Both the position numbers and the translations under genes were made by a program. 64,000 nt of DNA, from the NCBI GenBank assembly GCA_015227615.1, contig JAALGZ010000035.1, positions 327,462 to 391,461 of the forward strand. Reading direction: 5' to 3'. This document shows, in pieces, positions 26,763 to 64,000 of the stretch (position 1 is its first letter; the number at the start of each line of letters is the position of its first letter). This stretch comes from Labyrinthula sp. Ha. Taxonomy: Eukaryota > Sar > Bigyra > Labyrinthulida > Labyrinthulaceae. The notes under the pieces are model-generated. The model made no database searches. It saw only the letters and a program-made list of their open reading frames with translations, and had not been told where the DNA came from.

Positions 26763-26780
26763 GTGAATTCAGCACGTTTT

Positions 26781-38052: not shown

Positions 38053-38123
38053 GATTTTTTGACTCTGGAGTCAGATACTCCAAATTCTCATTGGCCGAAT
38101 TTTCAATTGCCCAAAATTTTTTT
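38053..38123. repeat. left terminal inverted repeat of the MULE
   Basis: About 71 bp, imperfectly complementary to 41,060-41,130. It includes GACTCTGGAGTC, a near-palindrome that is perfect in the right end (GACTCCGGAGTC). Confidence 0.85.
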
Positions 38124-38850: not shown

Positions 38851-39027
38851 CTCACTCATCTATGAGAAGAGTGGTCTGAGAGAAGTCAAGAGGCGAAGCG
38901 ACGTTTTCTTCATTCCCCTCCCTTCTTTTGACCCTCTTCTTTGACGACTTAAACATAATCCCGCTTTCCTGGCATATCTAATACAAATCCCCAAAGTCTC
39001 CATCCGGAGTTTCCACTAACGCTTCGG

Positions 39028-40824: not shown

Positions 40825-40976
40825 TTCTTCTGAAGTAGAATACGTTGCTGCAGTCCATGTTCCCAGTATTTCTGATTGACTTTGTTGTTCAGGGTCTAGA
40901 ACCTCTGGTTGGAGGCTCGTCCCTTTGGTTTCGTCTTTTTACATAGTTTTTGTTCGTAATTTTGTTTTCAAATTTG

Positions 40977-41073
40977 CCCAAAATATTTTTGTCTGCCCTC
41001 TTTAAATTTTCTCTCACTCACAAATTCTACGCATCGATTATTCAGACGAAGTATGATGACAAAAAATTTTGGG
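40977..41073. repeat. hairpin-forming inverted repeat at the right MULE end
   Basis: CCCAAAATATTTTTGTC at 40,977-40,993 is nearly the reverse complement of GACAAAAAATTTTGGG at 41,058-41,073, the inner part of the right terminal repeat. So the inner end motif occurs twice in opposite orientations here, and only once at the left end. Confidence 0.6.
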
Positions 41074-41130
41074 AAATCGATCTGACCAATGAAATCGCGA
41101 GGAGTATCTGACTCCGGAGTCAAAAAATCC
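41060..41130. repeat. right terminal inverted repeat of the MULE
   Basis: Reverse complement matches 38,053-38,123 with about a quarter of positions changed. It contains the perfect 12-bp palindrome GACTCCGGAGTC at 41,111-41,122. Confidence 0.85.
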
Positions 41131-41150
41131 GAGCCCCTAATGGATTGCCG

Positions 41151-42190: not shown

Positions 42191-44080
42191 ATGAAAGTAG
42201 CTCAGTGTATATTTGCTCTAGCAGTGTATATTTTCTCGTCAACTGAAGCACGGAAAAGTCTTATGGGTGAAAAGGGTCAACTTCTTATGGCTACAAAAAC
42301 TGAGTTTTGGACACAAAAGACCCAAGCTGGAGAACTTCCAATGCCAGGGCTTTCTGCTTCCTTCAACCCGCAAACCTGCAACAATACAGATGATATTGAT
42401 GGAGTAGTAGTTATTAATGAAGAAGTATTTCCTTGCAAGAATGTAGATTTTATCTCATTCCTTCCAATAAAGGATTTGTTTATTGATGAGCAAAATGGCA
42501 CAACCTCAGGTTCTGATATGTGGGGATGGGAAGATACAAGAACTGGTCAAGAGTATGCTCTGTTGACTGTCGATAATGGGACTTGGTTCATTGATACAAC
42601 TAATCCTGTTCATCCAGTGAAAGTAGCTTTCGGGAAAAATCTTGCGACCCAATCTCGGTGGGGTGATGTCAAAGTGTATAAGGATGTAGCTTATGTAGTG
42701 AGAGATAGAAATACGGATACTAAATTTGATGATCATTATGGAGTTGAAATCTGGAATCTTACTCGCTTAAGAGATATTCCGGAGGAAAAATTTCCTGTTG
42801 AAATGAAACCAGATACTGTTCACTCAGGACATGGAGCAGCTCATAATATTGCTGTAAATACAGAAACAGGATATGCGTATTCTATTGGAAGTGATAAATG
42901 TAGAGCTGGTGCATATATTCTCAACTTAGAACCAGATCCACTAAATCCTGTGTTTGTAGGTTGTGTTGATGATGATGGATATACTCATGATGCTCAAATT
43001 GTACTTTATGATGGACCTGATGAAAGATTTATTGGAAAAGAAATACTTTTTGCATATAATGAAGATACTTTGACTATTTATGATGTTTCTGATAAACAAA
43101 ATATAAAGAGGATATCTAGAACAGGATATCCAAATGCAGAATATACGCATCAAGGTTGGCTTACAGGTGATATGAGATGGATTTTCTTGAATGATGAACT
43201 TGATGAACAGGAAGGAGTTGTCAATACCACAACTACATATCTTGTAGATGTTTCTGATTTAAGAAAACCTGTTCTTGGAGCAAATTACACACACAGAGAT
43301 GTATCAATTGACCATAATTTGTATGACTGGGGTGCAATCCATGCTAAGGGATGGGGTGGATCACCACCTTATGAAGAAGGAAACTATTCTTTTCCACCAA
43401 TTAGTAACAGATTTATGTATTTATCCAACTACGCTGCTGGGATTAGAATATTGGATATTCAAGGTATACCAAAAGTTTCAGAAGCAGGTTTTTTTGACAT
43501 TGCTCCAGACAAAGCTGGAAATGAATTTGTAGGAACTTGGAGTAATTATTTGCATCCAAGTGGAAATTTAGCTGTTTCATCAATTGAAAGAGGATTATTT
43601 ATACTTAAGCCAAGAGATGAAATAATGTATACTGAATTAGTGGAAACAAGTTCTCCAACAATTGTTCCAACTGCACCGACTTCACTAACTGTTACACCTG
43701 CTCCAACAGAACTTCCTACTACTTCGCCTACTGCTTGTGTAGATAGCTTGCTAGAGTTATATGATACCCCTGAAGAAGGGTCATCATGTGCAGATATGTT
43801 AGAATACTGTAATTTGGACCCTGGTATGAAAGATATGTGTGAAGCTACCTGTGGATTTTGTACTGCTATTGCTGATACACCTGAAAGTAAAGAAGATACT
43901 CTAACTAGGGACAAGGCGTCCAATTTTGGGATTATAACTTTCCTTGGTATTATTGTTTTAGTCTATGTAAAGTATTTATATTTTTCCTGTAGTGGTTATG
44001 AGGAGACACAAGATGTTCTGATGGAAGACAATAAACATCCTGGGCTAGCTAGAGTTCTTGTTACTGATGGAAAAGCATAA
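42191..44080 (+). CDS. secreted/membrane LVIVD beta-propeller protein with ShK-like domain (gene 1)
   Basis: Intronless, 629 residues. The start at 42191 is chosen because it begins a signal peptide (MKVAQCIFALAVYIFSS); an ATG 27 nt upstream would place charged residues before it. Residues ~50-480 form a choice-of-anchor-B/LVIVD propeller: GWEDTRTGQEYALL, DTVHSGHGAAHNIAV, GYTHDAQIVLYDGPDERF, THQGWLTGDMRW and DELDEQEG. A Pro/Thr-rich linker (SPTIVPTAPTSL) and a six-Cys ShK-like module (C-x16-C-x6-C-x9-C-x3-C-x2-C) follow, then one membrane helix (FGIITFLGIIVLVYVKYLYF) and a short cytoplasmic tail. This predicts a cell-surface type I protein; its ligand or role is unknown. ShK modules are common disulphide domains and do not make this a toxin. 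It is a diverged paralogue of genes 2 and 3 and converges on gene 2, 405 bp between stops. Confidence 0.88.
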   Translation: MKVAQCIFALAVYIFSSTEARKSLMGEKGQLLMATKTEFWTQKTQAGELPMPGLSASFNPQTCNNTDDIDGVVVINEEVFPCKNVDFISFLPIKDLFIDEQNGTTSGSDMWGWEDTRTGQEYALLTVDNGTWFIDTTNPVHPVKVAFGKNLATQSRWGDVKVYKDVAYVVRDRNTDTKFDDHYGVEIWNLTRLRDIPEEKFPVEMKPDTVHSGHGAAHNIAVNTETGYAYSIGSDKCRAGAYILNLEPDPLNPVFVGCVDDDGYTHDAQIVLYDGPDERFIGKEILFAYNEDTLTIYDVSDKQNIKRISRTGYPNAEYTHQGWLTGDMRWIFLNDELDEQEGVVNTTTTYLVDVSDLRKPVLGANYTHRDVSIDHNLYDWGAIHAKGWGGSPPYEEGNYSFPPISNRFMYLSNYAAGIRILDIQGIPKVSEAGFFDIAPDKAGNEFVGTWSNYLHPSGNLAVSSIERGLFILKPRDEIMYTELVETSSPTIVPTAPTSLTVTPAPTELPTTSPTACVDSLLELYDTPEEGSSCADMLEYCNLDPGMKDMCEATCGFCTAIADTPESKEDTLTRDKASNFGIITFLGIIVLVYVKYLYFSCSGYEETQDVLMEDNKHPGLARVLVTDGKA

Positions 44081-44485: not shown

Positions 44486-46483
44486 TTAAATTAGTACTTG
44501 ATGCTCTGCAAGTAACGGTTTTGCTTGTTTTTTCTCTGCTCTTGTTAGGTTTTTTTCAGAATGCAAGTCATTAGAAGAAGGGATCATCATTTTTAAAGTA
44601 AACAACAGTACAACTACTGAAAGAATAACAATTACCAAAACCAAGGAATCATTCACTGTTGAGTACTCCTCGTCATTCGGTGAGGATTCAGTAGTAGAAC
44701 CTGTTGGTGGGTTTGTTGGTAAACTTATTGGCGAACCTGTCGGTAAGTTTGTTGGTGAACTTATTGGTGAACCTGTTGGTTTATTCGTAAGTATCCCTGC
44801 ATTTGGATCACAAAGATTACAAGTAACAGGACACATTTCCTGAACCGAAATATATTTACAAGAAGCTATCATATCTGGGCATTCTAAGTCTTCTCCAGTT
44901 GTAGTACTTGCAAAACCAGTTGGAAAAACATCCTTACAAACAAAACCAGTAGTAGTTGGCATATAAGTTGGAGACGGTGGAATAGTTGGTGGAGTTGGTA
45001 CAGTAGGAACAATTGTTGGGGACCTTGTTTCCACTAATTCAGTATACAATATTTTGTCTCTTGGTCTAAGTATAAATAATCCTCTTTCAATTGAAGAAAC
45101 AGCTAAATTTCCACTTGGATGCATATAATTACTCCAGGTTCCTTCAAAATTAGTCCCATCAACATCTGGAGCAACATCAAAAAAACCAGCCTCTGAAACT
45201 ACAGGCATACCTTGAATATCCAATATTCTAATTCCAGCTGCGTAGTTAGATAAATACATAAATCTATTACTGATTGGAGGATATAAAGATTTTCCTTCCT
45301 CATAGGGTGGTGATCCACCCCATCCTTTTTCATGGATTGCACCCCAATTATACAAATTATGATCTATGGAAATATCTCTGTGTACAAATTCTCCTTTAAA
45401 AATAGGATTTCTCAAATCAGTTACGTCTACAAGGTATGTAGTTGTTGTTGGTACAACTTGAAGTATCTCATCAAGTTCATCATTCAAGAAAACCCATCTC
45501 ATATCAGCCGTCAACCAACCTTGATGAACATAGTTTGCATTTGAGTATGTTGTTTTGGATATTGTTTCAATGTTTTGCTTATCAGTAACATCTAAAATTA
45601 CAAAATGATCTTCATAAAACCCCAGAAAAATTTCTCTTCCTGTAAATCTCTCATCAGGTCCATCATAAACTACAATTTGAGCATCATGAGTATATCCTTG
45701 TTCTTCAAAACAAGCCTCTGAAACTGGATTAAGTGCATCGGGTTCCAAATTAAGAATATATGGACCACCTTTACATTTATTACTTCCCAATGAATATGCA
45801 TATCCTGTTTCTGTATTCATAGCAATATTATGAGCCGCTCCATGTCCTGAATGAATAGTATCTGGCTCTATCTCTAAAGGATAATCTTCTTTTGGAATAT
45901 CTCTCAAACGAGTAAGATCAAACACTTCAACTCCATGTCTTTCGTCAAACTCTGTCTCTTCAGTTCTGTCTCTTACAAGATACGCAACATCCTTGTAAAC
46001 CTTTACATCAGCCCAATTATCTTGAGATGCAGCATTTGGTCCATATGCGACTGTTATTGGATTAGAAGGATCAGTTGTATCAATAAACCAAATGCCATTG
46101 TTTACTGTAAATAAGGTGTATTCCTGACCAGTTACTGTATCTTCCCATCCCCAAATATCAGAGGATGAAGTGGTTCCGTTCTGCTGATCAATAAACAGAT
46201 CTGTCAGAGGGATAAAAGACATAAAATCAACATCTCTGCAAGCAAATTCTTCCCCATTAATAACCAAAACTCCATCAATATCTCCGGTATTGTTACAAGT
46301 TTGTGGGGTGAAGGATGAGGCGAGATTTGGTCTTGGAAGTTCTCCGGCTGCTACTTTTTCTTTCCAAAAATTGAGCTTTTTGTCCATCAGCATTAGACCA
46401 TTTTTACTCATAAGGCTGTTTCTTCCCTCAATCGATAGCCAAGAAGTTGCTAATAGGATACTTAAGTTAAAAACTGTTTTCAT
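44486..46483 (-). CDS. secreted/membrane LVIVD beta-propeller protein with ShK-like domain (gene 2)
   Basis: Intronless, 665 residues from the ATG at 46483, which begins a signal peptide (MKTVFNLSILLATSWLS). The frame is open for 48 more codons upstream, but that leader would bury the signal, so the internal start is preferred. The propeller has the family motifs (GWEDTVTGQEYTLF, SGHGAAHNIAMN, YTHDAQIVVYDGPDERF, VHQGWLTADMRW). A Pro/Thr linker, a six-Cys ShK-like module ending CPVTCNLC, a 12-residue PT repeat, one membrane helix (LVLVIVILSVVVLLF) and a Lys-rich tail follow. From the N-terminus to about residue 400 it is identical to gene 3 except one residue (Thr versus Ile in WFIDT-DPSNP); after YPPISNRFMYLSNY it diverges. 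Stop TAA. Confidence 0.88.
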   Translation of the reverse strand: MKTVFNLSILLATSWLSIEGRNSLMSKNGLMLMDKKLNFWKEKVAAGELPRPNLASSFTPQTCNNTGDIDGVLVINGEEFACRDVDFMSFIPLTDLFIDQQNGTTSSSDIWGWEDTVTGQEYTLFTVNNGIWFIDTTDPSNPITVAYGPNAASQDNWADVKVYKDVAYLVRDRTEETEFDERHGVEVFDLTRLRDIPKEDYPLEIEPDTIHSGHGAAHNIAMNTETGYAYSLGSNKCKGGPYILNLEPDALNPVSEACFEEQGYTHDAQIVVYDGPDERFTGREIFLGFYEDHFVILDVTDKQNIETISKTTYSNANYVHQGWLTADMRWVFLNDELDEILQVVPTTTTYLVDVTDLRNPIFKGEFVHRDISIDHNLYNWGAIHEKGWGGSPPYEEGKSLYPPISNRFMYLSNYAAGIRILDIQGMPVVSEAGFFDVAPDVDGTNFEGTWSNYMHPSGNLAVSSIERGLFILRPRDKILYTELVETRSPTIVPTVPTPPTIPPSPTYMPTTTGFVCKDVFPTGFASTTTGEDLECPDMIASCKYISVQEMCPVTCNLCDPNAGILTNKPTGSPISSPTNLPTGSPISLPTNPPTGSTTESSPNDEEYSTVNDSLVLVIVILSVVVLLFTLKMMIPSSNDLHSEKNLTRAEKKQAKPLLAEHQVLI
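44696..44779 (-). repeat. 36-bp tandem repeat encoding a Pro-Thr-Ser spacer in gene 2
   Basis: Two and a third units of 12 residues (PTGSPISSPTNL type) lie between the ShK-like module and the membrane helix. The DNA units are almost identical, indicating recent expansion. Gene 3 has only a short unrepeated PT stretch here and gene 1 none, so spacer length varies between paralogues. Confidence 0.85.
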
Positions 46484-49400
46484 TTGATTTTGCTTTATTA
46501 TATAGTGGAATATTGTTTTGTTTTTCTGATATCCAAGATAAAACAAAGAGTAAAGGTCATTTTTGAACTGAGGTACGGGAATTGAAAGATTTTCGTAATA
46601 ATTCAAAGGATATAAATGGAAGACCAAATCATCAGTGTCAAATTCATTTATTCTTCTTGTACTGTTAAAAATACCAGTAATCTACTGTAAGATTTCTGGA
46701 ATATAAATTTTGGGTTCTCAAAACACAAATATATTGTAATAGCACTATTATGGTTATTACTGGAATATCTTCGAATTAGTGTAAAGAAATCCTTATAATA
46801 AAATAACTTGGGCAATATAATATTGAGCCCATTTCATGATTATTGTCCTTGTATTTATTTGACTGACGAGGACTAGGCCCTGATATTTTATCTTCAGCAA
46901 AAAGCTTGACGAATGGAAATATATTCTTTATTATACTAGTGTTAATATAACAAGTACTCTAATAAAACATAAGAACCTTTTAATATAACCATATATTGTA
47001 ATAAAAAACTTAATACTGTATTGTATTCTAAATCAAGTAATACTTGGAGTATTTTTTGAATATTCAATTGGCTCTGAGGAGAACTTGGAAGTAAAAGTAC
47101 GTATGATTCAGTGTATATAGTTCTAGGAAAGGGGAAAATTTAGCAACACAACCTTCCCCATCTCAATAACCTTTCACGCTAATTCACATAGCTCTCAAAC
47201 ACATGAAAACAGTTGTTTCCTGCAAATAGTCTAAACTCATTTCTGATGGGGCACATGTTCTCAGGTATTTCTGTGGTTTGTTCTGTACGGATTATTACTA
47301 GAGCGATAAAAACAGTATAATATCAATCACAGAGTTCTTAGACCCTAAAAAGATACTCCTCATAAAATATATTGATATATTTTTGGCATGTGGTAGCTAA
47401 TAACATAACTCTGAGCCGTTAACATATATTCAAGACATTGATATGGTAATTTAGAGCATAGATAGAAGGACACTAAGACTCTTGTAGGGCCAACTATAGA
47501 AGTGGTATAGTATTAGGGTGACTGAATTATTTTTTCTTCAATTTTCTATAACTCTATGTATTAATCCTACTCACAAAAAAATATGAAACAGTAAACTATA
47601 TTAATCATTCAATTTTTTTTCTAGGGTTTTTTACTGCTTGAAAACCAAGTACCATACCTTGTAAATCTAGGCCTTGTTTCTAGTAGCAGTTTAAATATAG
47701 TTCCAAAGTAGCTATATACAATGGAGTTGATAACAATGTTCGAATCAGTACAATAACAGCTAAAAAAGATCTATACAAATCTTGTTTCAACTGTTTGTGT
47801 TGGGCTTTATTGGGATTTCCAATCATAATACTTGGAACACTTAAAATGTCAAGGATTGAAACCAGGAAGTTGTTCTCAATCTGTAGCTTCCGGACTACGA
47901 GTACCCTCTGTAAGATTTAACTATGTTGTTTTTATCCTTAATACTAAAGTGGAACTTGGTTTGTACGGCACTGTTGTTCCTTATCTCTGTATAGATAGTT
48001 TTTTTCCTTAATTAAAATAAAATGGTTAAGAACTGTGAAACTTCTAGCCTTGACACTTCAAGAATCTAATTCTAGCAATTGCACGGTTTGACCTATTCGT
48101 GAAAGAATTTTGTTCGTATAATTTGTAGGATTTAATTTGTAAATTTTCATCGATTTCGGATGCCTCTAATTAATTCATGATTTTGATTGTATTGTGATTT
48201 CCATATAATAATGTTGATTGGATTGATATGGTACTATGTTTCTGAGACCACGATGAATAGAAAGTGTTTGGTTTCGTTTAGTAGCTTATTGTGTCTTCAG
48301 ATTTAGAAAACGCCCCTTTCATTATATAACCCATATTTATTCTTGTGTACTGCAAGTCGTACATAAGAATACAGCTATTAGTTTTCCATAGCTTCTTTAA
48401 GTTTATTATGAATAGTCTATGGAAGAATTTTTGCAACAGGTACTTTCAATCCAAAGCCGAGTTCCATCTGCACCATCTCTTGCTCTACATAGGAACAAAA
48501 TATATTTTCTTTCTTTCAACAATATTCCACACTGCATAGCGCCAATCCATGTGTTTTGTTCATTATCAATGACTTAAAGTATATTGTCAGAATCTTGAAT
48601 TTCTCTGGGGTTCCGATCATCTCTTTTTATTCTACCTCATCAATTTAGCTTATTTCTTGTGCAAATTCTCTGATTGAAGACTTCTTTACATATCTGAACA
48701 CCTACCCTATTACAATAAAATTAATAGATTATTACTTAAACAATGTTGCTAGGTTGATGCTCTTACTTCATAATGAGTACGTAGAATACTCAATTTTTCA
48801 TAATGCATTAAATAAGATAAGACCCATTTATTTCCTAAACCATCCCCATTTAATACTATATTATTCTTACGGAGTTCCTATTGTTTCAGGTCGTACACTT
48901 GTAATTTGTTCAAGCTTCCATTATTTTGGATATTAATCCAAAATCAAATATTAGTTTTCTTTGAGTTTACAATCTCTTCTTTCCTATCATCTCACTGTAT
49001 ACATATTCATTACGTTAGGTGTTTTCATATTTTGATTTCTATTGAGAAGCAAAGTATTGGTTCTTGATACTTCCGTAAATCCAGTTTGAGAAACATAGAT
49101 GTCTTTAATAGTTCTTGCAATAAGGCCAATTTATATGTATGATCAAATGAACTGGTTATTCCTAAGAACTTGTCACACGTTGCATTTTTCCAGAACAGTT
49201 GGACCAGCAGACTTGTAAGCCTACAGGAATAATGCTTAGAGACAATTATAGATTACAGGATTAAGCTTTTAGAAAGATGTACTAATACTAGGTAAGATGG
49301 ATACTGCATCAATAGAAAAAATCACTTTGTTCAACTACATGGTTAAACAAATTGAGCAGGGATTTATCGCACCTAGAGGTAGCAGTTATGCTCAGTATCA

Positions 49401-50564
49401 TATCGTGGCAAAGCAAATTTTTCTCCAATGAATCAACAAAACCAAACTCAAAGCAGAACTAATACTCTTTTGTGGATGTTGCTTAACGCCAGCCTATTGT
49501 ATCAAACCAGATATAATACCTTGGTTTCAGTTTAAGCGAAAGTGATTTTTTATTCTGTGACTTTTGGTTACGTTAGAATTTGCATTCATTTTCTTACTAA
49601 TTTTCACATATCCTGTGTATGTACTTGCTATATTGATGCTTTAAGTAATTATATTTGCGTACTTTTTCCAGAGTCCCTGAAATTTTGGAATCTTAGCATC
49701 AATATCGTTAAATTTTCTGGCTCACAACTACTGAGACCCACATTTCAAACTTTCTAAATATTGCTCAGCTACAGAGGCAAAAAACTAACCATCTAATTTT
49801 ATCAATATTGGAACATATGTCCGTTGTCAGCTGTACTGTTATACTTAGTATCTACAATTATTTACAGCAAAAAAACATTTTTCCTGGAAGATCCGTATAA
49901 CATCTGCCAAATTAAAATTGGAATCACATTTACCTGAGCCAGATCTATCTGTTCTATAATATTCTTTGACAAAAATTGAATTAAACATGCTTTTGTCGAT
50001 TTGGCATCTTATCATTTTATTTAATATGGCATGAATAACGAATCAAGCATCATTATTGGAATCTAAAGCTAGAAAAGAAAACTGAAAACTTTCTATTACG
50101 TATCAGGAGTATTAAGAATTCTTATCAAACTCTGTTCCAAGATGCTGTTTTTAATAAATCCTAAAAACTTAGCAAATTGGATTAGTAGGAGCTAGTACTT
50201 ATTCCGCAAACTATTGTAATAGCTTTATTTCTTAGAGCGTCTACCTAAATACCTCAAAATATACATGTAGTTTACTTAAGGTCCAAAGAAAACTAAAAAC
50301 TAAGTAGAGGAACCATTTTTTCTCTGAGAAGCGTATTGAATAAAAAGTAACATAATAATGATCACATAGACATTTCATTGGTTCGTAATAGTTAGTAAGA
50401 GAAAGAATACCCTGTCGATTTAAATCCAGGTAAATAAAGTGTAATAAATCCCAATATCTGCTCATTCAGTGTGTTGTAGTAATCTAACAAAGCAAAATGT
50501 TAGTACTACCATACTAGGCTTTTTCTTGTTTCTGACTGGATTAGCACTCGTGATAAAGAAACTA
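46484..50564. other. noncoding region upstream of propeller gene 2
   Basis: About 4.1 kb with no supported gene. It lies wholly within the duplicated unit, and the copy at 58,866-62,951 is also without a gene. The ~1.3 kb nearest the gene is virtually identical in both copies and should contain the promoter. Confidence 0.6.
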
Positions 50565-50698
50565 TGAAATTACTCAATTAGATAGGTTCCTACCTGTCAT
50601 AACAACTGTTGGAGGCATAATTCTAGCCCTGAACAGTTCGATTCGGTTAGCGTATTTTATATATGAATTATGAGAAGAAGCTTTCCGAAAAAAAAACA
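50565..50698 (+). repeat. 5' terminal direct repeat (LTR or its 3' part) of the copia element
   Basis: TGAAATT...AAAACA, ~134 bp, matching 55,172-55,305 at roughly two-thirds of positions, with shared GATAGGTTCCTA, GGAGGCAT/AGAGGCAT and CTTTCCGAAAAA. The begin/end TG..CA is as expected for LTRs. Confidence 0.55.
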
Positions 50699-51199
50699 GA
50701 TTAAGATCCTAAGTACAAGAAATCATATTCGAGAGTAAGCTCTGCCCAGCAGAATCAGAGAAACCACATCCATATCGAAAAACATACTTTAGGAGTGCAA
50801 ATATCTTGGGGATTTTCTCTACCCCTATAAAAGGTCTAGACAACCGAATCAAATTTTGACTATAAGCTTGATGGATCGTGCACTTAGACTTTGGAAACTT
50901 GTGTTAAATGGTGATACATTCGATTGAATAGCACAGTTTAAAGTACACTTTGAATATTTTGGATACTGTAGCGACCTTAGTAAGAGAAGTTCGTTTTATG
51001 TTCTTGATGGAACTGTGGAGAACCCTGTATAATTGATAAGAGCTAGATGCAGAAGAGACTTACTTTCAAGTCTAGTGCTGGACCTCGTGGTAGTGGTAAG
51101 AAATTTTATTAGTACGTATGATGTTTTTCCTGGCATTAAGAGAATGTTTGTTAGATCAGTTTCAAATTGAAAATATAAGCTAAGACAAGAAATTATTCA

Positions 51200-51593
51200 T
51201 ATGACCATTGAGAAGGACTATTCCCGTTTCATGACGAGTTATCAAGCGTTGGTTGCAGAATTGAATTCTTTAGACAATGTGATGAACTGGAAGAACATTT
51301 TCCTTAATTTCTTAGAAAGTTTGTGAAGTACCTTATCGGTGATACCCTATTCTCTTAAGAACAATGCAGAGTTTTTAAAAGAAGCCAAATTATTTTGGGG
51401 CACTACTTTTGATGTAGTGTTGGATTATCTCATATTTTATGGTCTTTATCAGCCTAGTGGAAAAAAATACTCTGCTCAAGAGAAAACTGGGATGAATAAC
51501 TGCGAAACTATCACTAACAACAAGAAAATAAAAGGTCTTAGGTCAAATATTTTGGTCTCAGGAAAAAAGGTGTTACTGCTACAAATATCTTGA
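51200..51593 (+). pseudogene. copia Gag fragment
   Basis: Reads TIEKDYSRFMTSYQALVAEL, then NFLESL, a stop, then a second piece from 51,339. The pattern of a helix followed by a short leucine-rich L-x-x-L-P-like turn fits the Gag (UBN2-type) domain of copia elements. Copy B has the same stop. Confidence 0.55.
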
Positions 51594-52712
51594 AAACATC
51601 GAAAAGAAAGAAGAAGGATCTATAGAAACATACAAGCAGACATACGGAGAAAAGGCTTGGATATGTGCAGCAAAGCAGAATAGAATCACATAAGCTTCAC
51701 TCTGGACTCCTGGTCTATACAACACGTATGCAGTGAGCTTTACCTCTTCTCTAATAAGATTAAGATCCTGGAGAAGCAGATATCTACGACAAGCGATGAG
51801 ACAAGTACAAATTACCCTGGTGATGTTAAACTTAGGTTAGAAAATGAAAAAAAAATATCTCTTTCAGGAGTACAGCATTGGCCTATATCACCTATGCTAC
51901 TTTATGCTGCTACTCCGACACAAAAGGTGTGGGCGTAGTACTTTGAAAGATATTTCAAGGATAGTTTCAAAAGGTGAAATTTTCTATGTAGAAAGAAGAT
52001 GAAGAGATGGATTTTATATAGTACATTTTTTGAAAGAAAAAATAATTGTTCCTATTGAAGCTTGGCATAACCGCTTTAACTATTGTAGTAAAGAACATCT
52101 TGTGCAAACTTCCTGAATGTTCATGAAAAAGGACGAACCATTCAAACTCAAAAAAATCTGCGATAGATGTATGAAGAGAAATTTGAATCATGCAACCCCT
52201 CCCCCAATAAAGTGGTAAGATTCGTTCAGAAATTAAATTCCTGGAACTCTAAGTTGTAGACGCAGTGGGCCCTCATGGCATGTCAATTAACCATAGGATT
52301 TGGGTGTTGGTAGTTACTTAATCTAAATCGCAATTTCAATAGAGCTTTCAGTTTGTAAGGAAGACCGTGGTACCAGGCTTGATGATTTCACACATTATTT
52401 ATATCGAGGAATCCTTTCCACTTCAGGTTCCGAATACGAGGTCAGATAATAGATCAAAACTTTGCCACTAAGCTTTTGATGGATTCTAAAAGAAGAAAGG
52501 TATCAAGTACCAAGTTATAATCTAATTTAAGCGAGAGTGAAATTATTGAATACATAGCTCTAATAAGATTTCACTGAAAAGCAAGAGAATTTAGATTAAG
52601 GAAGCTGGCGTTACTAGAAGTTCTTAGCCATTCGCAATGAGATATACGACTCATGAGTACAGCTTTCCAAAGCTATTGAAGAACGATACTTCTTCATAAC
52701 AACTTTTTTTCG

Positions 52713-52931
52713 GTGTTCAAACCACCCGTTGAAAAAAATCTAAATTTTTGGAGTAGCAGTGTTTGCTCATATTCATTGAAAATTAGACAGAGACTAGATG
52801 ACATCATGAAAAGGGCACTGTTCTTTGGCCACGGGAAAAACTTTGATGGCTGTTTCGTTAGAGACGCCAAGAGGAGTAGAATTCTTGTTACAAGAAGTTT
52901 ATTTGTGATGAAGAAAATTTTTGAATTCTAA
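52713..52931 (+). pseudogene. copia integrase C-terminal fragment
   Basis: FWSSSVCSYSLKIRQRLDD, then ALFFGHGKNFDGCFVRDAK and SRILVTRSLFV correspond to the conserved stretch after the integrase core of copia polyproteins (F-G-C-x-x-Y ... K-L-D ... F-x-G-Y ... Y-R-x-x-D ... R-D-V-x-F). Confidence 0.65.
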
Positions 52932-53780
52932 AAGTACGTTTCTTGGTGCAAGGAGAGAGAAGGAAGAAGGTGTTAATGATTTTTTGCTCCAAAAACTACT
53001 TTTGGTGGAAAAAAAACCTCAGATGATTGATTGAGTGAGTTTTGCGCAGAAACATATTCACAAAGATCACAGGCTCCCGCTGTTACTAGTTCTGTACAAG
53101 ATATGACGGTACTTCATGACGCATCTGCTGAAAGTTGATATGATGATGTTGTGTCAGAACATCTTTCAGAAAAGGATGAAGTAGTTAAAATTAGCGAAGA
53201 AACAGTCTCCAGTAGACTTGGATTAAGTATTAAAGTTCCATAACGATTCAAATACTCGATAAACGTGCTTGGACATGGTACTCAGTTCGAAACTTCACAA
53301 GCATTATTGATATTTTTAATAGTAGTTTCTGAAGCTAAGCTGAAAGATAATATGAAAAAAGTTACAAGCTCTACAAAGCGTACCTGGTAGCAAAAGTTGA
53401 ATAAGAAAAATCTAACTAAGATGAAACAGGTAATCTGGAAGAGAATGAAGAGCTAAGAGCCTTTTCAAAAAAAGGTAAATGTAAATCACACCTTTCAAAA
53501 AAAATACTTACAAAAAAGGTAGAAAACATCTCTCAAGCTGTGAAACTTAATATTAGATTGGCAACCGGAATGGGACTTTAATTTGATCAATCAGGAAATT
53601 GTTGCAGTCCATCAGCTGGTGCTATACAATTTCGCCTTTTGCTTACTTAGTAAAAGTTTGGCTGGTATTTAAAACAAGGCGGCTATTCCAATATAGACTT
53701 GAATTTCAGAATGGACGAACCAGCTTATTTATTGCTTCCAAATAGTCATCCAAAAAAAACCTAAGTCTAATGACCTTATT

Positions 53781-54482
53781 TATGAATGTTGGGCTAGTTT
53801 GTATGGCTTGGCTGTTGCTGGCCAGGTTTGGTACTGGAAATTTGTTGAAGTTGTTAAAGAGTTTGATTTGAAACCATTAACCAGATGTCCTTCATTATTT
53901 TCATGTGAGAAGGATGGTGCAAAATTGTGGTTAGTACTTTACGTTGATGATTTCTTGATAGGATCAAAGGATTTACATTTGATGACCCCTTGTGAGGATT
54001 TCTTGTTGGAAAAATTTAAAGTGAGATGTACTCGTGCGGTTAAAAAAATTGTTGGACTTCAACTAGATCGTGGAAGTTTAAGAGTTGCGATACATCAGAA
54101 TGAGAAAATTCATGACATGGGTACGAGATACAGGACCACAAAATTTCCAAGCAAGCCAATGATTAAAAATTTTAAGTGGAATGAAAATTCTGTAGCCTTA
54201 GATAACATCAAACCGCTTCAGAAGCTGTTTGGTGAGCTAAATCACCTTAGTACGATGTCAAGACCTGACATTAATTGCTCAGTTAACAGAATTGCTAGAA
54301 GACTTCATGGTGGCACTAAAGAGGCGTACAGAAGAGCAAAGCCAATTCTTGCCTACCTTTTTGATACAAGCAACTTTGTTTTAGCCATGAAAAGTTTCTC
54401 TGGTATTTCGAAGTTGGAACTTTATTGTTATGATAGTTTTGCTGATGATAAACTTGAGAAAATCAGCAATGGAGGTTTTTAA
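53781..54482 (+). pseudogene. copia reverse transcriptase fragment
   Basis: Starts near CWASLYGLAVAGQVWYWKF, contains the RT active site LYVDDFLIGS, and the later MSRPDINCSVNRIARRLHGG block. The frame is open to TAA at 54,480-54,482. Upstream RT sequence is separated by a frame change in an A-run near 53,755, and the RNase H part follows in another frame. Confidence 0.85.
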
Positions 54483-54499
54483 TCTTTCTAAATGGCGGG

Positions 54500-54830
54500 T
54501 TGGTTCATTGGAAATCTAGAAAAATCAAGATAGTTTATACATCAACGACGCAAAGTGAGTGTCTGTCATTGTATAGTAGCGTAATGGATGTTCTATTTGT
54601 TGCAAGGTTACTTTATTATTTCTTGGGAATAATTGCGTGGCCGATTCAACTTTACGTTAACAATCAAGCAGTTCTTAATGTTGTTGAATATGCGGCTCCA
54701 GGTGAAATCAATTGACGCATGGTAGGAAGGTACTACGCTCCTCAATAGCGGGTTAATAAAGGGTTACTAGAACTTGATTATGCGGCTTCAAATCGAGCTT
54801 ATAAGGTATTATGACGAAGTTAAGTGGGGA
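54500..54830 (+). pseudogene. copia RNase H fragment
   Basis: VHWKSRKIKIVYTSTTQSEC corresponds to the S-W-K-S-K-x-Q ... S-S-T-E-A-E-Y motif, followed by LYVNNQAVLN (usual D-N-Q). The open frame stops at TGA 54,713-54,715, but family-like sequence (RMVGRYYAPQ, LLELDYA) continues in frame past it and past a TAG. Confidence 0.75.
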
Positions 54831-54865
54831 ATTGGTTCCTATGACCAACCAACTTCTTCATCCAC

Positions 54866-55305
54866 GGGGGAACGTTAGAAATTGACACAAGTGTTAATTT
54901 TATGATTCACCTTATTTTTTGTGCATATTTTGGGTATTTTCTGAGGTGACCCAGTTGGGTACTTCAGTTATTTCTTGTGGAAAACTCTGTTTTAGATGTC
55001 GTTATTGTTTCTTAGTTTGTGTTTCCTCCTACCCGATCGCTATTTCGCCATATAGTTTGGGCAGAACTTCTTTCTTGCCATAATGTGAAATCCCTGTTTC
55101 TATAGAAATTTCGAGCTGATACAGGTACTTGAATAACTTCTACAGGTATCTGTGATTGCAATTGGGGTTCTTGAAACTGGTTATTCTGTTTGATAGGTTC
55201 CTAGCTGTGAATAAATCTGGCAGAGGCATCATTTTACCAGTGAACAACTCGATTTGAGTTTCGTGTTTTAACTATTAATTGTGAGAGGGAACTTTCCGAA
55301 AAACA
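54866..55305 (+). repeat. polypurine tract and 3' LTR of the copia element
   Basis: GGGGGAA at 54,866-54,872 is a plausible polypurine primer site, directly followed by CGTTAGAAATTGACAC, like a TGTTAG LTR start with one change. The region ends at ...CCGAAAAACA (55,305). Only its last ~134 bp (55,172-55,305) matches the 5' repeat, so the 5' LTR may be truncated or the LTR may really be ~134 bp. Confidence 0.5.
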
Positions 55306-56942
55306 TCCATAAAGGTAAAAAGAAAGCCAAATGATCAATAGAAAGAGAGTATATTTTAAAAAATTAGTTGTGAACCACCGGGTTATGTAAAGAATATAAA
55401 ATTATAACATTTTATTAATTCTAAAATAAGAAAAGATTAAGAAGTAACAGAAAGAGTTCTTACAAAAATTGTTCTTTTCGTGTTTAATACTTCAATTATT
55501 TTCAGATTACACGTTGAAGATTGTCAACCAAGTTCTATCCAAGTTGCACTATAAGGCGTTATACATATCTTGTTGCGGTCATTTCTTGTTGGCTAGGATG
55601 TTGACAAGATATCATGTGGTTAAAGGGGTTTTCAGTGAACTCGATCGTAAATAGCTACACCACCTAATTAATATCTATGTTATATACACTCTACGTTCTA
55701 TTTGTATAAAATTACGAGAGGCATGATTTTCTTGTCGCATTCATCCATCTAGCCACCCCACTCATGCAACAGTTACTCTTAGTGAAGTACTCGTAGTGGC
55801 AGTTTTTACCAGCGGGTATAGAGCTAGCGAAGTTAAAGTGACGAATGATACATATGCCTGGAGAATTTGAATGAAAAAAAAAGGTTTGGCTCCTGTATAA
55901 TACTTTGGAAGCAAAGTGAAGAACTCTACCTCAACAAAGGTTAAGTCATAGTTCTTGGTAATAAAATGTATGAAAGCCTTATAGAATCAAACCCAAGATG
56001 AATTTTTTTGATTCAATAATATCAAATTTAGCTCTAACTCACTTATACTAGTCTTGCGAGGATGCTCTGATTCTTTTTTATGTTTCTTTGTGACTCTTAT
56101 TTTTTCCAGTACTACTTTCTATTATTTTGATTTACTTCTTTCTTGGTATTATCCATTGACTAGATCTTAAGTTTCCTCCCAACTTTCTTGTACAAAGGGA
56201 TATTCTCCTGGAAGACTACTTACTACACTAAATTTAAACTAACTATGCACCTACTATAAGCATCAAACTGCACATAATTGCGAAAGTGGTTCCACAAGTT
56301 AAATTAGTATCATTTATTTTTGTCTAGTTACATATTTTCTGTTCAATTATCTGTCAGTGTCAAATTGATCGCAAATGTACTGATTTACATAAACACTCCT
56401 TATAATTATAACTACCATCCACTTTTCTAATCATTTAGAAATTTCATAGCCAAACGAAATGATTGATAAGAAAACATTTGTACATGTGATGTCTTTGGTT
56501 CCAAAATTTACTTAGTTCAACCAGCTTTTCCTTTGTACTAGAGTGTACAATAGATTCATATGACAGAGATAACATGAATTAATGCTACTATTGTTAGTCA
56601 CACTAGTTTTAATAGCTATAACCTCATTGGCGTGACTCAGTAATTACTTCTCAAGTCTTTTGTCGTTCCTTTTGACCACACTTACTTTCGGGCTTTACCA
56701 TTCTACATATGAATTTTCTTTTCCTATTATTAATACTGGCATTGTGTACAAAATCTTAGAGATCCAGTTCCTTAGAATGAGTTTTAAAAGCTTTCGTATA
56801 TTTTATTAAGAAACTGCTTGTTCATAGACAACATTAGAAAACATATCTTAAGGGCAGGGTCTTTAAATTGTTTTCTCTTAGAACAATGAAATTAAACAAT
56901 ATATATCTTATTACTTCAATATTAAAACTCTATTCAAATTTA
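55306..56942. other. intergenic, no gene seen
   Basis: About 1.6 kb between the copia element and the 3' end of propeller gene 3. This is outside the visible duplication. No supported feature. Confidence 0.5.
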
Positions 56943-58865
56943 TTAAATTTGACCAGCAACAAGCTCACTAGCAAGTTGGGTTTCTTTAGACTCTTTTTTC
57001 ATTATTACTCCTGCCTCATTCTTAGGAGTGTGGGTCCACAGATTTTTTATTCCTAAGACAAGAATAATAACCAAGAGAACAACAATCGTTAATTGCAACA
57101 CATTGTTCACAGAAATTTCAAACTCTTCATCCTCCGAGGTTATAATGGGATCTTTACTGGGAATACCTGTAGGTGCCAGTGTTGGAGGGGTACACAATCC
57201 ACATGTAACAGGACAAGCTTCCTGTACAAGATCATAGCTACAATCATTTTGAAGATCAACACACTCTGCATCTTCCATGGTAGCCGTAGATTTTAGTCCA
57301 GTAGGTACAGCATCTTCACAAACGATTGGCGCTGCAGTTGGAAGTAAAGTAGGGGGTGGAGTAATCGTAGGTGGAGTTGGAGCTGTAGGAACAATTACAG
57401 GCGACTCAGTTTCCACGAATTCACTGTATAATATTTTATCTCTTGGTTTGACCATAAATAAACCTCTTTCGATAGAGGAAATAGCTATATTTCCACTTGG
57501 ATGCATATAGTTACTCCAAGTACCTTCAAAAGCATTTGGTTCTACATCTGGATTAACATCAAAGAAACCTGCTTCTGATATTTCTGGTATTCCTTGTATG
57601 TCCAAAATTCTTAATCCAGCAACATAGTTAGATAAATACATGAACCTATTGCTGATTGGTGGATATAAAGATTTTCCTTCCTCATAGGGTGGTGATCCAC
57701 CCCATCCTTTTTCATGGATTGCACCCCAATTATACAAATTATGATCTATGGAAATATCTCTGTGTACAAATTCTCCTTTAAAAATAGGATTTCTCAAATC
57801 AGTTACGTCTACAAGGTATGTAGTTGTTGTTGGTACAACTTGAAGTATCTCATCAAGTTCATCATTCAAGAAAACCCATCTCATATCAGCCGTCAACCAA
57901 CCTTGATGAACATAGTTTGCATTTGAGTATGTTGTTTTGGATATTGTTTCAATGTTTTGCTTATCAGTAACATCTAAAATTACAAAATGATCTTCATAAA
58001 ACCCCAGAAAAATTTCTCTTCCTGTAAATCTCTCATCAGGTCCATCATAAACTACAATTTGAGCATCATGAGTATATCCTTGTTCTTCAAAACAAGCCTC
58101 TGAAACTGGATTAAGTGCATCGGGTTCCAAATTAAGAATATATGGACCACCTTTACATTTATTACTTCCCAATGAATATGCATATCCTGTTTCTGTATTC
58201 ATAGCAATATTATGAGCCGCTCCATGTCCTGAATGAATAGTATCTGGCTCTATCTCTAAAGGATAATCTTCTTTTGGAATATCTCTCAAACGAGTAAGAT
58301 CAAACACTTCAACTCCATGTCTTTCGTCAAACTCTGTCTCTTCAGTTCTGTCTCTTACAAGATACGCAACATCCTTGTAAACCTTTACATCAGCCCAATT
58401 ATCTTGAGATGCAGCATTTGGTCCATATGCGACTGTTATTGGATTAGAAGGATCAATTGTATCAATAAACCAAATGCCATTGTTTACTGTAAATAAGGTG
58501 TATTCCTGACCAGTTACTGTATCTTCCCATCCCCAAATATCAGAGGATGAAGTGGTTCCGTTCTGCTGATCAATAAACAGATCTGTCAGAGGGATAAAAG
58601 ACATAAAATCAACATCTCTGCAAGCAAATTCTTCCCCATTAATAACCAAAACTCCATCAATATCTCCGGTATTGTTACAAGTTTGTGGGGTGAAGGATGA
58701 GGCGAGATTTGGTCTTGGAAGTTCTCCGGCTGCTACTTTTTCTTTCCAAAAATTGAGCTTTTTGTCCATCAGCATTAGACCATTTTTACTCATAAGGCTG
58801 TTTCTTCCCTCAATCGATAGCCAAGAAGTTGCTAATAGGATACTTAAGTTAAAAACTGTTTTCAT
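56943..58865 (-). CDS. secreted/membrane LVIVD beta-propeller protein with ShK-like domain (gene 3)
   Basis: Intronless, 640 residues from the ATG at 58865 (same signal peptide as gene 2; the frame is again open for 48 codons upstream). The N-terminal ~400 residues match gene 2 with one substitution. After YPPISNRFMYLSNY it changes (V-A-G-L-R-I-L-D-I-Q-G-I-P-E-I-S versus A-A-G-I-R-I-L-D-I-Q-G-M-P-V-V-S), and continues with a different Pro/Thr linker (TAPTPPTITPPPTLLPT), a six-Cys ShK-like module ending CPVTCGLC, a short PT stretch without the 36-bp repeat, a membrane helix (LTIVVLLVIILVLGI) and a different tail. The switch is abrupt at DNA level near 57,660. It is therefore a chimera of a duplicated 5' part and an older, diverged 3' part, or the product of conversion. 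Stop TAA. Confidence 0.88.
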   Translation of the reverse strand: MKTVFNLSILLATSWLSIEGRNSLMSKNGLMLMDKKLNFWKEKVAAGELPRPNLASSFTPQTCNNTGDIDGVLVINGEEFACRDVDFMSFIPLTDLFIDQQNGTTSSSDIWGWEDTVTGQEYTLFTVNNGIWFIDTIDPSNPITVAYGPNAASQDNWADVKVYKDVAYLVRDRTEETEFDERHGVEVFDLTRLRDIPKEDYPLEIEPDTIHSGHGAAHNIAMNTETGYAYSLGSNKCKGGPYILNLEPDALNPVSEACFEEQGYTHDAQIVVYDGPDERFTGREIFLGFYEDHFVILDVTDKQNIETISKTTYSNANYVHQGWLTADMRWVFLNDELDEILQVVPTTTTYLVDVTDLRNPIFKGEFVHRDISIDHNLYNWGAIHEKGWGGSPPYEEGKSLYPPISNRFMYLSNYVAGLRILDIQGIPEISEAGFFDVNPDVEPNAFEGTWSNYMHPSGNIAISSIERGLFMVKPRDKILYSEFVETESPVIVPTAPTPPTITPPPTLLPTAAPIVCEDAVPTGLKSTATMEDAECVDLQNDCSYDLVQEACPVTCGLCTPPTLAPTGIPSKDPIITSEDEEFEISVNNVLQLTIVVLLVIILVLGIKNLWTHTPKNEAGVIMKKESKETQLASELVAGQI

Positions 58866-61800
58866 TTGATTTTGCTTTATTATATAGTGGAATATTGTTT
58901 TGTTTTTCTGATATCCAAGATAAAACAAAGAGTAAAGGTCATTTTTGAACTGAGGTACGGGAATTGAAAGATTTTCGTAATAATTCAAAGGATATAAATG
59001 GAAGACCAAATCATCAGTGTCAAATTCATTTATTCTTCTTGTACTGTTAAAAATACCAGTAATCTACTGTAAGATTTCTGGAATATAAATTTTGGGTTCT
59101 CAAAACACAAATATATTGTAATAGCACTATTATGGTTATTACTGGAATATCTTCGAATTAGTGTAAAGAAATCCTTATAATAAAATAACTTGGGCAATAT
59201 AATATTGAGCCCATTTCATGATTATTGTCCTTGTATTTATTTGACTGACGAGGACTAGGCCCTGATATTTTATCTTCAGCAAAAAGCTTGACGAATGGAA
59301 ATATATTCTTTATTATACTAGTGTTAATATAACAAGTACTCTAATAAAACATAAGAACCTTTTAATATAACCATATATTGTAATAAAAAACTTAATACTG
59401 TATTGTATTCTAAATCAAGTAATACTTGGAGTATTTTTTGAATATTCAATTGGCTCTGAGGAGAACTTGGAAGTAAAAGTACGTATGATTCAGTGTATAT
59501 AGTTCTAGGAAAGGGGAAAATTTAGCAACACAACCTTCCCCATCTCAATAACCTTTCACGCTAATTCACATAGCTCTCAAACACATGAAAACAGTTGTTT
59601 CCTGCAAATAGTCTAAACTCATTTCTGATGGGGCACATGTTCTCAGGTATTTCTGTGGTTTGTTCTGTACGGATTATTACTAGAGCGATAAAAACAGTAT
59701 AATATCAATCACAGAGTTCTTAGACCCTAAAAAGATACTCCTCATAAAATATATTGATATATTTTTGGCATGTGGTAGCTAATAACATAACTCTGAGCCG
59801 TTAACATATATTCAAGACATTGATATGGTAATTTAGAGCATAGATAGAAGGACACTAAGACTCTTGTAGGGCCAACTATAGAAGTGGTATAGTATTAGGG
59901 TGACTGAATTATTTTTTCTTCAATTTTCTATAACTCTATGTATTAATCCTACTCACAAAAAAATATGAAACAGTAAACTATATTAATCATTCAATTTTTT
60001 TTTTAGGGTTTTTTACTGCTTGAAAACCAAGTACCATACCTTGTAAATCTAGGCCTTGTTTCTAGTAGCAGTTTAAATATAGTTCCAAAGTAGCTATATA
60101 CAATGGAGCTGATAACAATGTTCGAATCAGTACAATAACAGCTAAAAAAGATCTATACAAACCTTTTAGCAACTATTCGTGCCGGACTTTATTGGGATTT
60201 TCGATCATAACAATTGGAACACTTAAAATGTCAAGGATTGAAACCAGGAAGTTGTTCTCAATCTGTAGCTTCCGGACTACGAGTACCCTCTGTAAGATTT
60301 AACTATGTTGTTTTTATCCTTAATACTAAAGTGGAACTTGGTTTGTACGGCACTGTTGTTCCTTATCTCTGTATAGATAGTTTTTTTCCTTAATTAAAAT
60401 AAAATGGTTAAGAACTGTGAAACTTCTAGCCTTGACACTTCAAGAATCTTATTCTAGCAATTGCTGGGTTTGACCTATTCGCGAAAAAATTTTGTTCGCA
60501 TAATTTGTAGGATTTAAAATTTAAATTTTCCTCGATTTTAGATGCATCTAATTAATTCATGATTTTGATTGTATTGTGATTTCCATATCATAATGTTGAT
60601 TGCATTGGTATGGGGCTGTGCTTCTGATACCATGGTGAGTACAAAGTGTTTGATTTCATTTAATAACTTGTTTCTACTACAGATTTAGAAAACGCAGATT
60701 TCATCAGCTTTCCCCATATTTATTTTAGTGTACTACCAGCAGTATTTAAGAATACAGCTATTTTTCTTTCTTCAGCTAATCCAAATTTACTATACATATA
60801 CTATGAAAGAATTCTTGTAGCAAATATTTTAAATCCAAAGTCGAATTCTATCTGCACCAGTTCTTGCTCTACATAGGGGAAAAATATATTTTCTATCTTT
60901 CTACCGTATTCTACACTGTATAGCATCGATCCATGTGTTTTGTACATTATCAATGACTTACAGTATATTGTTAGAATCTTGAATTTCTCTGGGATTCTGA
61001 TCATCCCATTTTATTCTACCTCATCTATTTATCTTATTTCTTGTCCAAATTTTCTGATTGAAAATTTCTTTACATATCTGAACACTCAAGCTGTTACAAT
61101 AAAATTAATAGATTAATATTCAAACAATGTTCTTAGGTTGATGTTCTTACTTCATAATGAGTACGTAGAATACTCAATTTTTCATAATGCATTAAATAAG
61201 ATAAGACCCATTTATTTCCTAAACCATCCCCATTTAATACTATATTATTCTTACGGAGTTCCTATTGTTTCAGGTCGTACACTTGTAATTTGTTCAAGCT
61301 TCCATTATTTTGGATATTAATCCAAAATCAAATATTAGTTTTCTTTGAGTTTACAAACTCTTCTTTCATATCTTCTCACTGTATATATATATATTCATTA
61401 CGTTAGATATTTTCTTACTCTGATTTCTATTGAGAGTCAAACTGTTGGTTTTTGATACTTCCGTAAATATAGTTTAAGAAACCTCGATGTCTTTAATTGT
61501 TCTTGCAATAAGGCCAATATATATATATGATCGAATAAACTGGTTATTCCTAAGAACCTGTCAAGGTTCGGACTTTTCCAGAATAGTTAGTCCGGTAGAG
61601 TTGTAAATCAACAGGACTAATGTTTAGAAACAATTCTCCGTTACAGGATTATGCTCTTAGAAGGATGTACTAATTTTAGGGTAAGATGGATACTGTATAC
61701 ATAGAAAAATCATTTGGTTCAACTACACAGTTCAGAAAATTTAGCAGGGATTTATCACACCCAGAGGTAGCAGTTATACCCGGTATCATACAGGTGCAAA

Positions 61801-63966
61801 GGAAAACTTTCTCCAATGAATCAACAAAACCAAACTCAAAGGAGAACTAATATTCTCTTGTGGATGCCGCTTAACGCTAACCTATTGTATCAAACCAGAC
61901 ACAATACCTTGGTTTTAGTTTAACTGAAAGTGATTTTTTTTCAGTAACTCTTGGTTATGTTAGAATTTGCATTCATCTTCTTACTAATTTTCACATATCA
62001 TGTGTATGTACTTGATATATTGATACTTTAAGTATTGATATTTGTGTACTTTTTCCATGGTCCCCGAAATTTCGGTATCTTATCATTAATATCGTTAAGT
62101 TTTCTGGCTCACAACTACTGAGACCCACATTTAAACTTAACAAGTATTTTTTTACCTACAGAGGCAAAAAACTAACCATCTAATTTTATCAATATTGGAA
62201 CATATGTCCGTTGTCAGCTGTACTGTTATACTTAGTATCTACAATTATTTACAGCAAGAAAACATTTTTCCTGGAAGATCCGTATAACATCTGCCAAATT
62301 AAAATTGGAATCACATTTACCTGAGCCAGATCTATCTGTTCTATAATATTCTTTGACAAAAATTGAATTAAACATGCTTTTGTCGATTTGGCATCTTATC
62401 ATTTTATTTAATATGGCATGAATAACGAATCAAGCATCATTATTGGAATCTAAAGCTAGAAAAGAAAACTGAAAACTTTCTATTACGTATCAGGAGTATT
62501 AAGAATTCTTATCAAACTCTGTTCCAAGATGCTGTTTTTAATAAATCCTAAAAACTTAGCAAATTGGATTAGTAGGAGCTAGTACTTATTCCGCAAACTA
62601 TTGTAATAGCTTTATTTCTTAGAGCGTCTACCTAAATACCTCAAAATATACATGTAGTTTACTTAAGGTCCAAAGAAAACTAAAAACTAAGTAGAGGAAC
62701 CATTTTTTCTCTGAGAAGCGTATTGAATAAAAAGTAACATAATAATGATCACATAGACATTTCATTGGTTCGTAATAGTTAGTAAGAGAAAGAATACCCT
62801 GTCGATTTAAATCCAGGTAAATAAAGTGTAATAAATCCCAATATCTGCTCATTCAGTGTGTTGTAGTAATCTAACAAAGCAAAATGTTAGTACTACCATA
62901 CTAGGCTTTTTCTTGTTTCTGACTGGATTAGCACTCGTGATAAAGAAACTATGAAATTACTCAATTAGATAGGTTCCTACCTGTCATAACAACTGTTGGA
63001 GGCATAATTCTAGCCCTGAACAGTTCGATTCGGTTAGCGTATTTTATATATGAATTATGAGAAGAAGCTTTCCGAAAAAAAAACAGATTAAGATCCTAAG
63101 TACAAGAAATCATATTCGAGAGTAAGCTCTGCCCAGCAGAATCAGAGAAACCACATCCATATCGAAAAACATACTTTAGGAGTGCAAATATCTTGGGGAT
63201 TTTCTCTACCCCTATAAAAGGTCTAGACAACCGAATCAAATTTTGACTATAAGCTTGATGGATCGTGCACTTAGACTTTGGAAACTTGTGTTAAATGGTG
63301 ATACATTCGATTGAATAGCACAGTTTAAAGTACACTTTGAATATTTTGGATACTGTAGCGACCTTAGTAAGAGAAGTTCGTTTTATGTTCTTGATGGAAC
63401 TGTGGAGAACCCTGTATAATTGATAAGAGCTAGATGCAGAAGAGACTTACTTTCAAGTCTAGTGCTGGACCTCGTGGTAGTGGTAAGAAATTTTATTAGT
63501 ACGTATGATGTTTTCCTGGCATTAAGAGAATGTTTGTTAGATCAGTTTCAAATTGAAAATATAAGCTAAGACAAGAAATTATTCATATGACCATTGAGAA
63601 GGACTATTCCCGTTTCATGACGAGTTATCAAGCGTTGGTTGCAGAATTGAATTCTTTAGACAATGTGATGAACTGGAAGAACATTTTCCTTAATTTCTTA
63701 GAAAGTTTGTGAAGTACCTTATCGGTGATACCCTATTCTCTTAAGAACAATGCAGAGTTTTTAAAAGAAGCCAAATTATTTTGGGGCACTACTTTTGATG
63801 TAGTGTTGGATTATCTCATATTTTATGGTCTTTATCAGCCTAGTGGAAAAAAATACTCTGCTCAAGAGAAAACTGGGATGAATAACTGCGAAACTATCAC
63901 TAACAACAAGAAAATAAAAGGTCTTAGGTCAAATATTTTGGTCTCAGGAAAAAAGGTGTTACTGTT
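57661..63966. repeat. segmental duplication, copy B
   Basis: Direct copy of 45,279-51,580. The last aligned bases before divergence are near 63,966, after which the two copies differ by several changes in ~40 bp up to the window end. Copy B has a slightly longer AT microsatellite near 61,382 and one T fewer near 63,512. Confidence 0.95.
58866..62951. other. noncoding region upstream of propeller gene 3 (copy B)
   Basis: Counterpart of 46,484-50,564, without a supported gene. Identity with copy A alternates between near-perfect and diverged blocks. Confidence 0.6.
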
Positions 63967-64000
63967 ACAAATGTCTTTGAAAACAGCGTAAAGAAAGAAG
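62952..64000 (+). mobile_element. 5' end of the copia element in copy B, cut by the window end
   Basis: LTR-like repeat at ~62,952-63,085 and the Gag fragment from ~63,585, nearly identical to 50,565-51,613 including its stop codon. The rest of the element, if present, lies beyond the window. Confidence 0.75.

Follow-up and report, generated by a model that had tools for sequence, protein, structure and literature searches.

How can two neighbouring copies of a repeat be almost identical over kilobases in some parts and differ at nearly a quarter of their positions in others? This question is raised by a 64,000-nucleotide stretch of Labyrinthula sp. Ha DNA (contig C83, 327,462-391,461; hereafter the window), which belongs to a genome of 50.84 Mb in 153 contigs. 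The right part of the window carries two copies, A and B, of a tandem unit composed of a choice-of-anchor-B family gene and a spacer with a decayed Ty1/copia-like retroelement; two further gene copies, C and D, are located on contig C64. A sequence-only reading of the window had described A and B as a segmental duplication of mosaic identity, and had named three possible causes: gene conversion tracts, repeated unequal exchange, and a joining of haplotypes during assembly. The array was probably shaped by recurrent non-allelic homologous recombination, that is by unequal crossing-over together with gene conversion.

Alternating identity and divergence between copies A and B

Copy A (44,916-51,578) and copy B (57,298-63,964) differ by 339 mismatches in 6,660 aligned bases and by 7 gap events. 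These figures come from the pairwise alignment and from counts on a four-way alignment. The offset is 12,382-12,387 bp, in agreement with the 12.4-kb spacing noticed earlier. The span first given to the duplication, 45,279 to 63,966, was accurate to a few bases except at its left start, as homology begins about 360 bp earlier, at 44,916 and 57,298, in sequence that is 24% diverged. On the right, the unit of copy B (57,298-64,000) is cut by the end of C83, which coincides with window base 64,000, so that this limit is that of the contig and not of the repeat.

Almost all mismatches (336 of 339) fall in four sharply bounded blocks with 13-24% divergence, and the other 3 lie in blocks with 0-0.1%, an alternation that had been correctly seen in the sequence-only reading. 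The first diverged block (44,921-45,278; 86/358, 24%) covers the 3' coding part, where A is odd relative to B, C and D. It is followed by near identity over 45,279-47,726 (2/2,448; partner 57,661-60,108), which includes the 5' two thirds of the gene and the upstream region. A diverged patch at 47,727-47,831 (14/105), in which B is odd and A equals C, gives way to 236 bases without mismatch (47,832-48,067), where C deviates at 7 sites, and then to a diverged spacer block (48,068-48,760; 115/693). The island formerly placed at 48,762-48,970 and estimated at about 210 bp is exactly identical over 212 bp (48,761-48,972; partner 61,145-61,356), with C deviating at 1 site. Beyond a further diverged spacer block (48,973-49,768; 121/794), the last identity block (49,769-51,578; partner 62,156-63,964) has one mismatch in 1,809 bases and one 1-base indel, and holds 1,008 bp of dead copia sequence.

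The longest mismatch-free gaps between A and B measure 1,707, 1,547 and 796 bp. In 5,000 simulations with randomly positioned mismatches, the mean of the longest gap was 126 bp and no run went beyond 286 bp; the mosaic observation therefore stands. In addition, at the local divergence of 13.3% the chance that a given start position opens an identical run of 212 bp is about 7e-14. On exact alignment divergence is thus uneven, unlike the outcome of a single duplication followed by drift.

Four gene copies and a dead retroelement

A search with the gene A protein gives four places with more than 85% identity, two on C83 and two on C64 (C64:3,839-5,704 and C64:16,231-18,111), and the array holds at least four genes, A and B on the former contig and C and D on the latter, all in the same orientation and spaced by about 12.4 kb. 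This number is a minimum because both contigs break within the array. C64 starts inside a repeat unit: its positions 15-10,693 align to window 53,320-64,000 at 94.9%, and its positions 3,993-18,588 align to 44,916-59,486 at 93.4%, homology ending at C64:18,588. At the right edge of the array, A, B, C and D are without difference over 46,808-47,104, after which D enters other sequence. In the simplest layout C64 would directly follow C83, about 1.7 kb of copia sequence would be absent from the assembly between them, and B and C would stand 12,388 bp apart.

Gene A (44,486-46,483, minus strand) encodes 665 amino acids and gene B (56,943-58,865, minus strand) 640, with matches to the family model TIGR04312 at E values of 1.3e-105 and 9.4e-105; the proteins of C and D have 640 and 645 residues. 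Beside the array and in opposite orientation lies a related gene, g0 (42,191-44,080, plus strand; 629 amino acids; E 2.3e-104), with 75-78% DNA identity to A and B. In an NCBIfam scan of these three proteins, g0, A and B scored 349.6, 353.7 and 350.8 bits for a curated cut-off of 100. In all four array proteins the N-terminus is weakly hydrophobic and a hydrophobic segment lies close to the C-terminus (residues 588-632 across copies; 614-632 in A). A cysteine stretch resembles ShK with a score below the Pfam cut-off. They are probable cell-surface proteins. Protein matches include labyrinthulomycete Aplanochytrium and EukProt proteins; of the five EukProt entries checked, P0009 corresponds to g0, P0004 to D, P0005 and P0008 to proteins of contigs C90 and C113, and P0007 to the end of the reading frame at C83:247 kb. 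The D protein carries an annotation score of AED 1.00 in EukProt, a value that suggests a gene model lacking transcript support. Genes of this family cluster on C83 and C64, with further members at C83:234,710-236,355, C83:247,046-248,824 and C64:140,242-142,099, some with many stops. Two related genes at C83:234-249 kb stand 12.3 kb apart, but the idea that they mark a second, older array copy was rejected, as the genes alone match and the spacer does not. A literature search under the name choice-of-anchor B turned up nothing.

Along the gene, the copy that stands apart changes repeatedly. A is odd by 24% over 44,921-45,278, where B, C and D differ from one another at no more than 1 site per 100 bp; C alone is odd at 45,507-45,552; A and B oppose C and D over 45,578-45,941; and D alone is odd, at 42 sites, over 46,198-46,807, where A, B and C agree. 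Below position 45,279, which corresponds to residue 402, gene A is of a different, old type, and the four-way profile of gene B combines a 3' part like that of C and D with a 5' part like that of A. Genes B and C are hybrids of a D-type 3' side and an A-type 5' side with differing switch points, a form that matches the product of crossing-over between misaligned right and left genes. C and D, both within C64, are mosaic by themselves. The spacer behaves likewise: the odd copy is in order B, C, A, B, A, B and then C (1.9% in this last block), alternating A, B, A, B within the diverged blocks at 48,068-49,768. Exactly two states are found at 456 of 458 variable sites. In the gene zone, with 168 variable sites, the identity of the odd copy switches only 13 times, against a mean of 108 and a minimum of 91 after shuffling; in the spacer, with 290 such sites, it switches 23 times (mean 158 and minimum 134 after shuffling). 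None of 2,000 shuffles gave so low a number in either zone.

Neighbouring gene blocks are of unequal age, as judged from synonymous (dS) and non-synonymous (dN) divergence between types: dS is about 1.19 and dN 0.34 over 44,560-45,278, 0.15-0.20 and 0.04-0.05 over 45,507-45,941, and 0.46 and 0.06 over 46,198-46,500. All diverged gene blocks retain an open frame. Over 44,921-45,278 A is nearer to g0 (64/358 mismatches) than B, C and D are (93/358), and the two types of 3' part are about equally far from four other family members. With three family outgroups, 37 changes were assigned to the A side and 35 to the D side over 44,921-45,278, 10 and 12 over 45,578-45,941, and 11 and 16 (13 private, 3 common to g0) over 46,198-46,500. 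Changes on both sides argue for two old types brought side by side and not for one freshly mutated copy. Since the changes are similar in number in the two sequence types, and since the substitution spectrum of the diverged blocks is mixed, without the C-to-T/G-to-A excess typical of repeat-induced point mutation, such mutation and one-sided hypermutation were ruled out in the gene blocks.

The spacer between A and B also contains a decayed Ty1/copia-like element (50,571-55,306, plus strand), whose counterpart in copy B starts at about 62,957 and is cut off by the contig end. An RVT_2 domain (E 9.1e-12) lies in the longest open reading frame (ORF) of the spacer (53,703-54,482), and relatives of the element are present on C91, C70, C139, C87, C134 and C144. 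The end repeats of the array element align over 123 bp at 73%, and a 434-bp end matches both ends of the C139 copy. Over 50,571-51,578 (1,008 bp) A and B show no mismatch, yet this sequence is about 25% distant from other copia copies. Constraint is therefore not the cause of identity in this dead element, and selection on the identical blocks was rejected.

The element is itself a patchwork. At both of its ends, A and C have about 20 changes per 100 in common relative to the other copies. Between about 52,400 and 54,800, A carries 8-36 changes per 100 in most bins and C few (1-7), and at 53,700-54,500 A itself is low (1-8). From the sequence, this reads as though younger sequence had overwritten parts of an old element. 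Furthermore, when K1, the copia copy that lies at one end of contig C91, is included, informative sites conflict with one another: they group A with C at 50,609-52,369, A with K1 at 53,989-54,136 and 54,532-54,650, and all three at 54,873-55,290, so that K1 is A-like in two patches and C-like thereafter. Site patterns switch 172 times over 575 sites (shuffled mean 348, minimum 319 of 2,000).

K1 (C91:319,245-324,586) also carries about 640 bp of array spacer past the element, up to window 55,945. Three copia copies (C91:305,995-310,680, K1 and C87:330,115-333,557) differ by 0.1-0.2% over the part aligned to 51,731-53,700. This closeness, with C87 and C91 both ending in such copies, indicates a family that was recently active or converted.

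Probable recombination and competing explanations

How could such a pattern arise? Two old tandem paralogues, the left one with an A-type 3' end and the right one with a D-type 5' end, would have been homogenised in mid-gene. Unequal crossing-over within the gene would have added units with a D-type 3' side and an A-type 5' side, at switch points that differ in B and C. Later gene-conversion tracts of about 0.1-2.5 kb may have overwritten parts of gene and spacer, leaving identical tracts between old diverged ones, and the copia part may also have been exchanged with copies elsewhere in the genome. Gene conversion and unequal exchange, both suggested from the sequence at the outset, fit best when taken jointly, in view of the hybrid genes B and C, the switching of the odd copy and the conflicting copia sites.

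Several points weigh against this explanation. C83, C64, C91 and C87 all end inside copia-family sequence, K1 sits at a contig end, and copy number, junctions and phase are those of the assembled contigs. B and C could be allelic instead of neighbours, and the contig with C and D may be the other haplotype. The gene and spacer case rests on clustered divergence, as almost every variable site there sets a single copy apart from the rest; three or four copies yield almost only such differences, and incompatible sites are thus confined to the copia part. An assembly search with a 1.4-kb spacer piece (48,100-49,500) gave three occurrences, in A, B and C, and no relative outside the array, so that the spacer blocks are without polarity. 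Finally, the diverged blocks are poor in indels (7 gap events for 339 mismatches), below expectation for old noncoding DNA.

The best-surviving alternative, though an unlikely one, is an artefact in which units or haplotypes were wrongly joined, or in which consensus polishing copied A into B at the contig end. It would account for the exact match of B to A over long stretches, for the end of C83 within copy B and the start of C64 within the same repeat unit, and for the ends of C91 and C87 in the same copia element. However, several blocks (44,921-45,278; 48,476-49,137) show B in agreement with C and D instead of A, C has identity blocks with A that differ in their limits although it lies on another contig, and the mosaic of C and D is internal to C64. 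Nor was the copia interior of C copied from another assembled element, its best match outside the array being 90%. Flank pieces of 1,201 bp on the right and 1,251 bp on the left have no second near-identical place in the assembly, the left piece matching C83 once more over 282 bp at 78%, and a haplotig of the array flanks was rejected accordingly. The 323,688 bases examined contain no N. Joined haplotypes, as once proposed, are also disfavoured by the likely allelic pair C85/C22, the only such pair compared, in which 4 differences in 4,719 bases amount to much less than the 13-24% found in the diverged blocks. C22 (22,188 bp) matches C85:332,645-337,363 at 99.9% over these 4,719 bp and is likely an alternative haplotype contig; heterozygosity may accordingly be low.

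Reciprocal unequal crossing-over between diverged units or haplotypes, acting without gene conversion, is very improbable. The D-left/A-right form of genes B and C is what crossing-over alone would give, but short patches (the island at 48,761-48,972, C at 45,507-45,552, and A with K1 at 54,532-54,650) are flanked on both sides by another pattern, and each would require two close exchanges. That no exchange occurred at all, with selection conserving the identical blocks or local hypermutation producing the diverged ones, is scarcely credible: few gaps and unpolarised spacer blocks would suit it, but identity spans the 1,008 bp of dead transposon and synonymous sites adjoining blocks with dS of 0.15-1.19, three gene blocks have changes on both sides, the substitution spectrum is mixed, and A and C have their common changes at the copia ends while C stays near the other copies in mid-element.

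Recurrent crossing-over and conversion might in addition serve to diversify surface proteins, by exchanging C-terminal parts and 5' regions among adjacent genes, with selection perhaps favouring variety; we regard this as doubtful. The C-terminal parts concerned comprise a predicted propeller end, a linker, the ShK-like cysteine stretch, the membrane segment and a tail, and the four frames are open. If this were true, new combinations of anchor and ectodomain would keep arising.

Surroundings and comparison with known systems

To the left of the array, the window contains ordinary single genes for HSP70 (10,466-12,466), a TFIIB/BRF1-like protein in two frames (20,847-22,543) and Bud13 (26,763-27,488). 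A 3.1-kb element at 38,045-41,136 is present elsewhere in the genome in more than 30 nearly complete copies (82-91%), and its ORF at 39,827-40,525 (minus strand) encodes a MULE transposase domain (E 1e-6). The ends of several other copies match each other inverted over about 70 bp; in the window copy no inverted repeat of at least 30 bp was found. An Rfam scan of the window gave no matches.

The mechanism being already known, the locus is a new example of it. It preserves, at good resolution, the natural traces of unequal exchange and conversion at one protist locus: switch points are mapped to a few bases across four gene copies, two of the genes are hybrids, and the dead transposon supplies an internal neutral control. 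Should the switch points vary among strains, the locus could be used to measure the rate of non-allelic conversion. Little literature was found on gene conversion in Labyrinthulomycetes, the sole match being off-topic by its title and the start of its abstract.

In Lepore globin and the colour opsins, unequal crossing-over duplicates the spacer and creates hybrid genes, in which the 3' part comes from one neighbour and the 5' part from the second; the array differs in having two hybrids, B and C, with different switch points. The choice-of-anchor B family owes its name to differing C-terminal anchors, and, compared with TIGR04312 proteins generally, the copies of this tandem array themselves have two types of C-terminal part. 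Like Ty1/copia long terminal repeat retrotransposons the array element has RVT_2, but it is decayed and only 123 bp of its end repeats align (73%).

According to a study of GOT1 paralogues in Tigriopus californicus, gene conversion generated alternating regions of high and low divergence and new gene combinations (PMC3728101). Such alternation between paralogues is also seen here, whereas the array is made of at least four tandem units of 12.4 kb, spacer and dead retroelement included, and was observed in a single genome instead of a population sample. Tandem gene arrays of Trypanosoma brucei are reported to contain regions with inconsistent affinities and to combine homogenisation and divergence within one locus (PMC1855330). 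Both are protist tandem arrays with affinities that are inconsistent along the unit; the present one, from one species, lies in a stramenopile-like genome, with units 12.4 kb apart and a transposon in the spacer. Experimental conversion tracts in yeast average about 200-500 bp (PMC3924818). The 212-bp island is within this size, and the identity blocks of 1.8 and 2.4 kb, which exceed these means, may represent several tracts or products of crossing-over.

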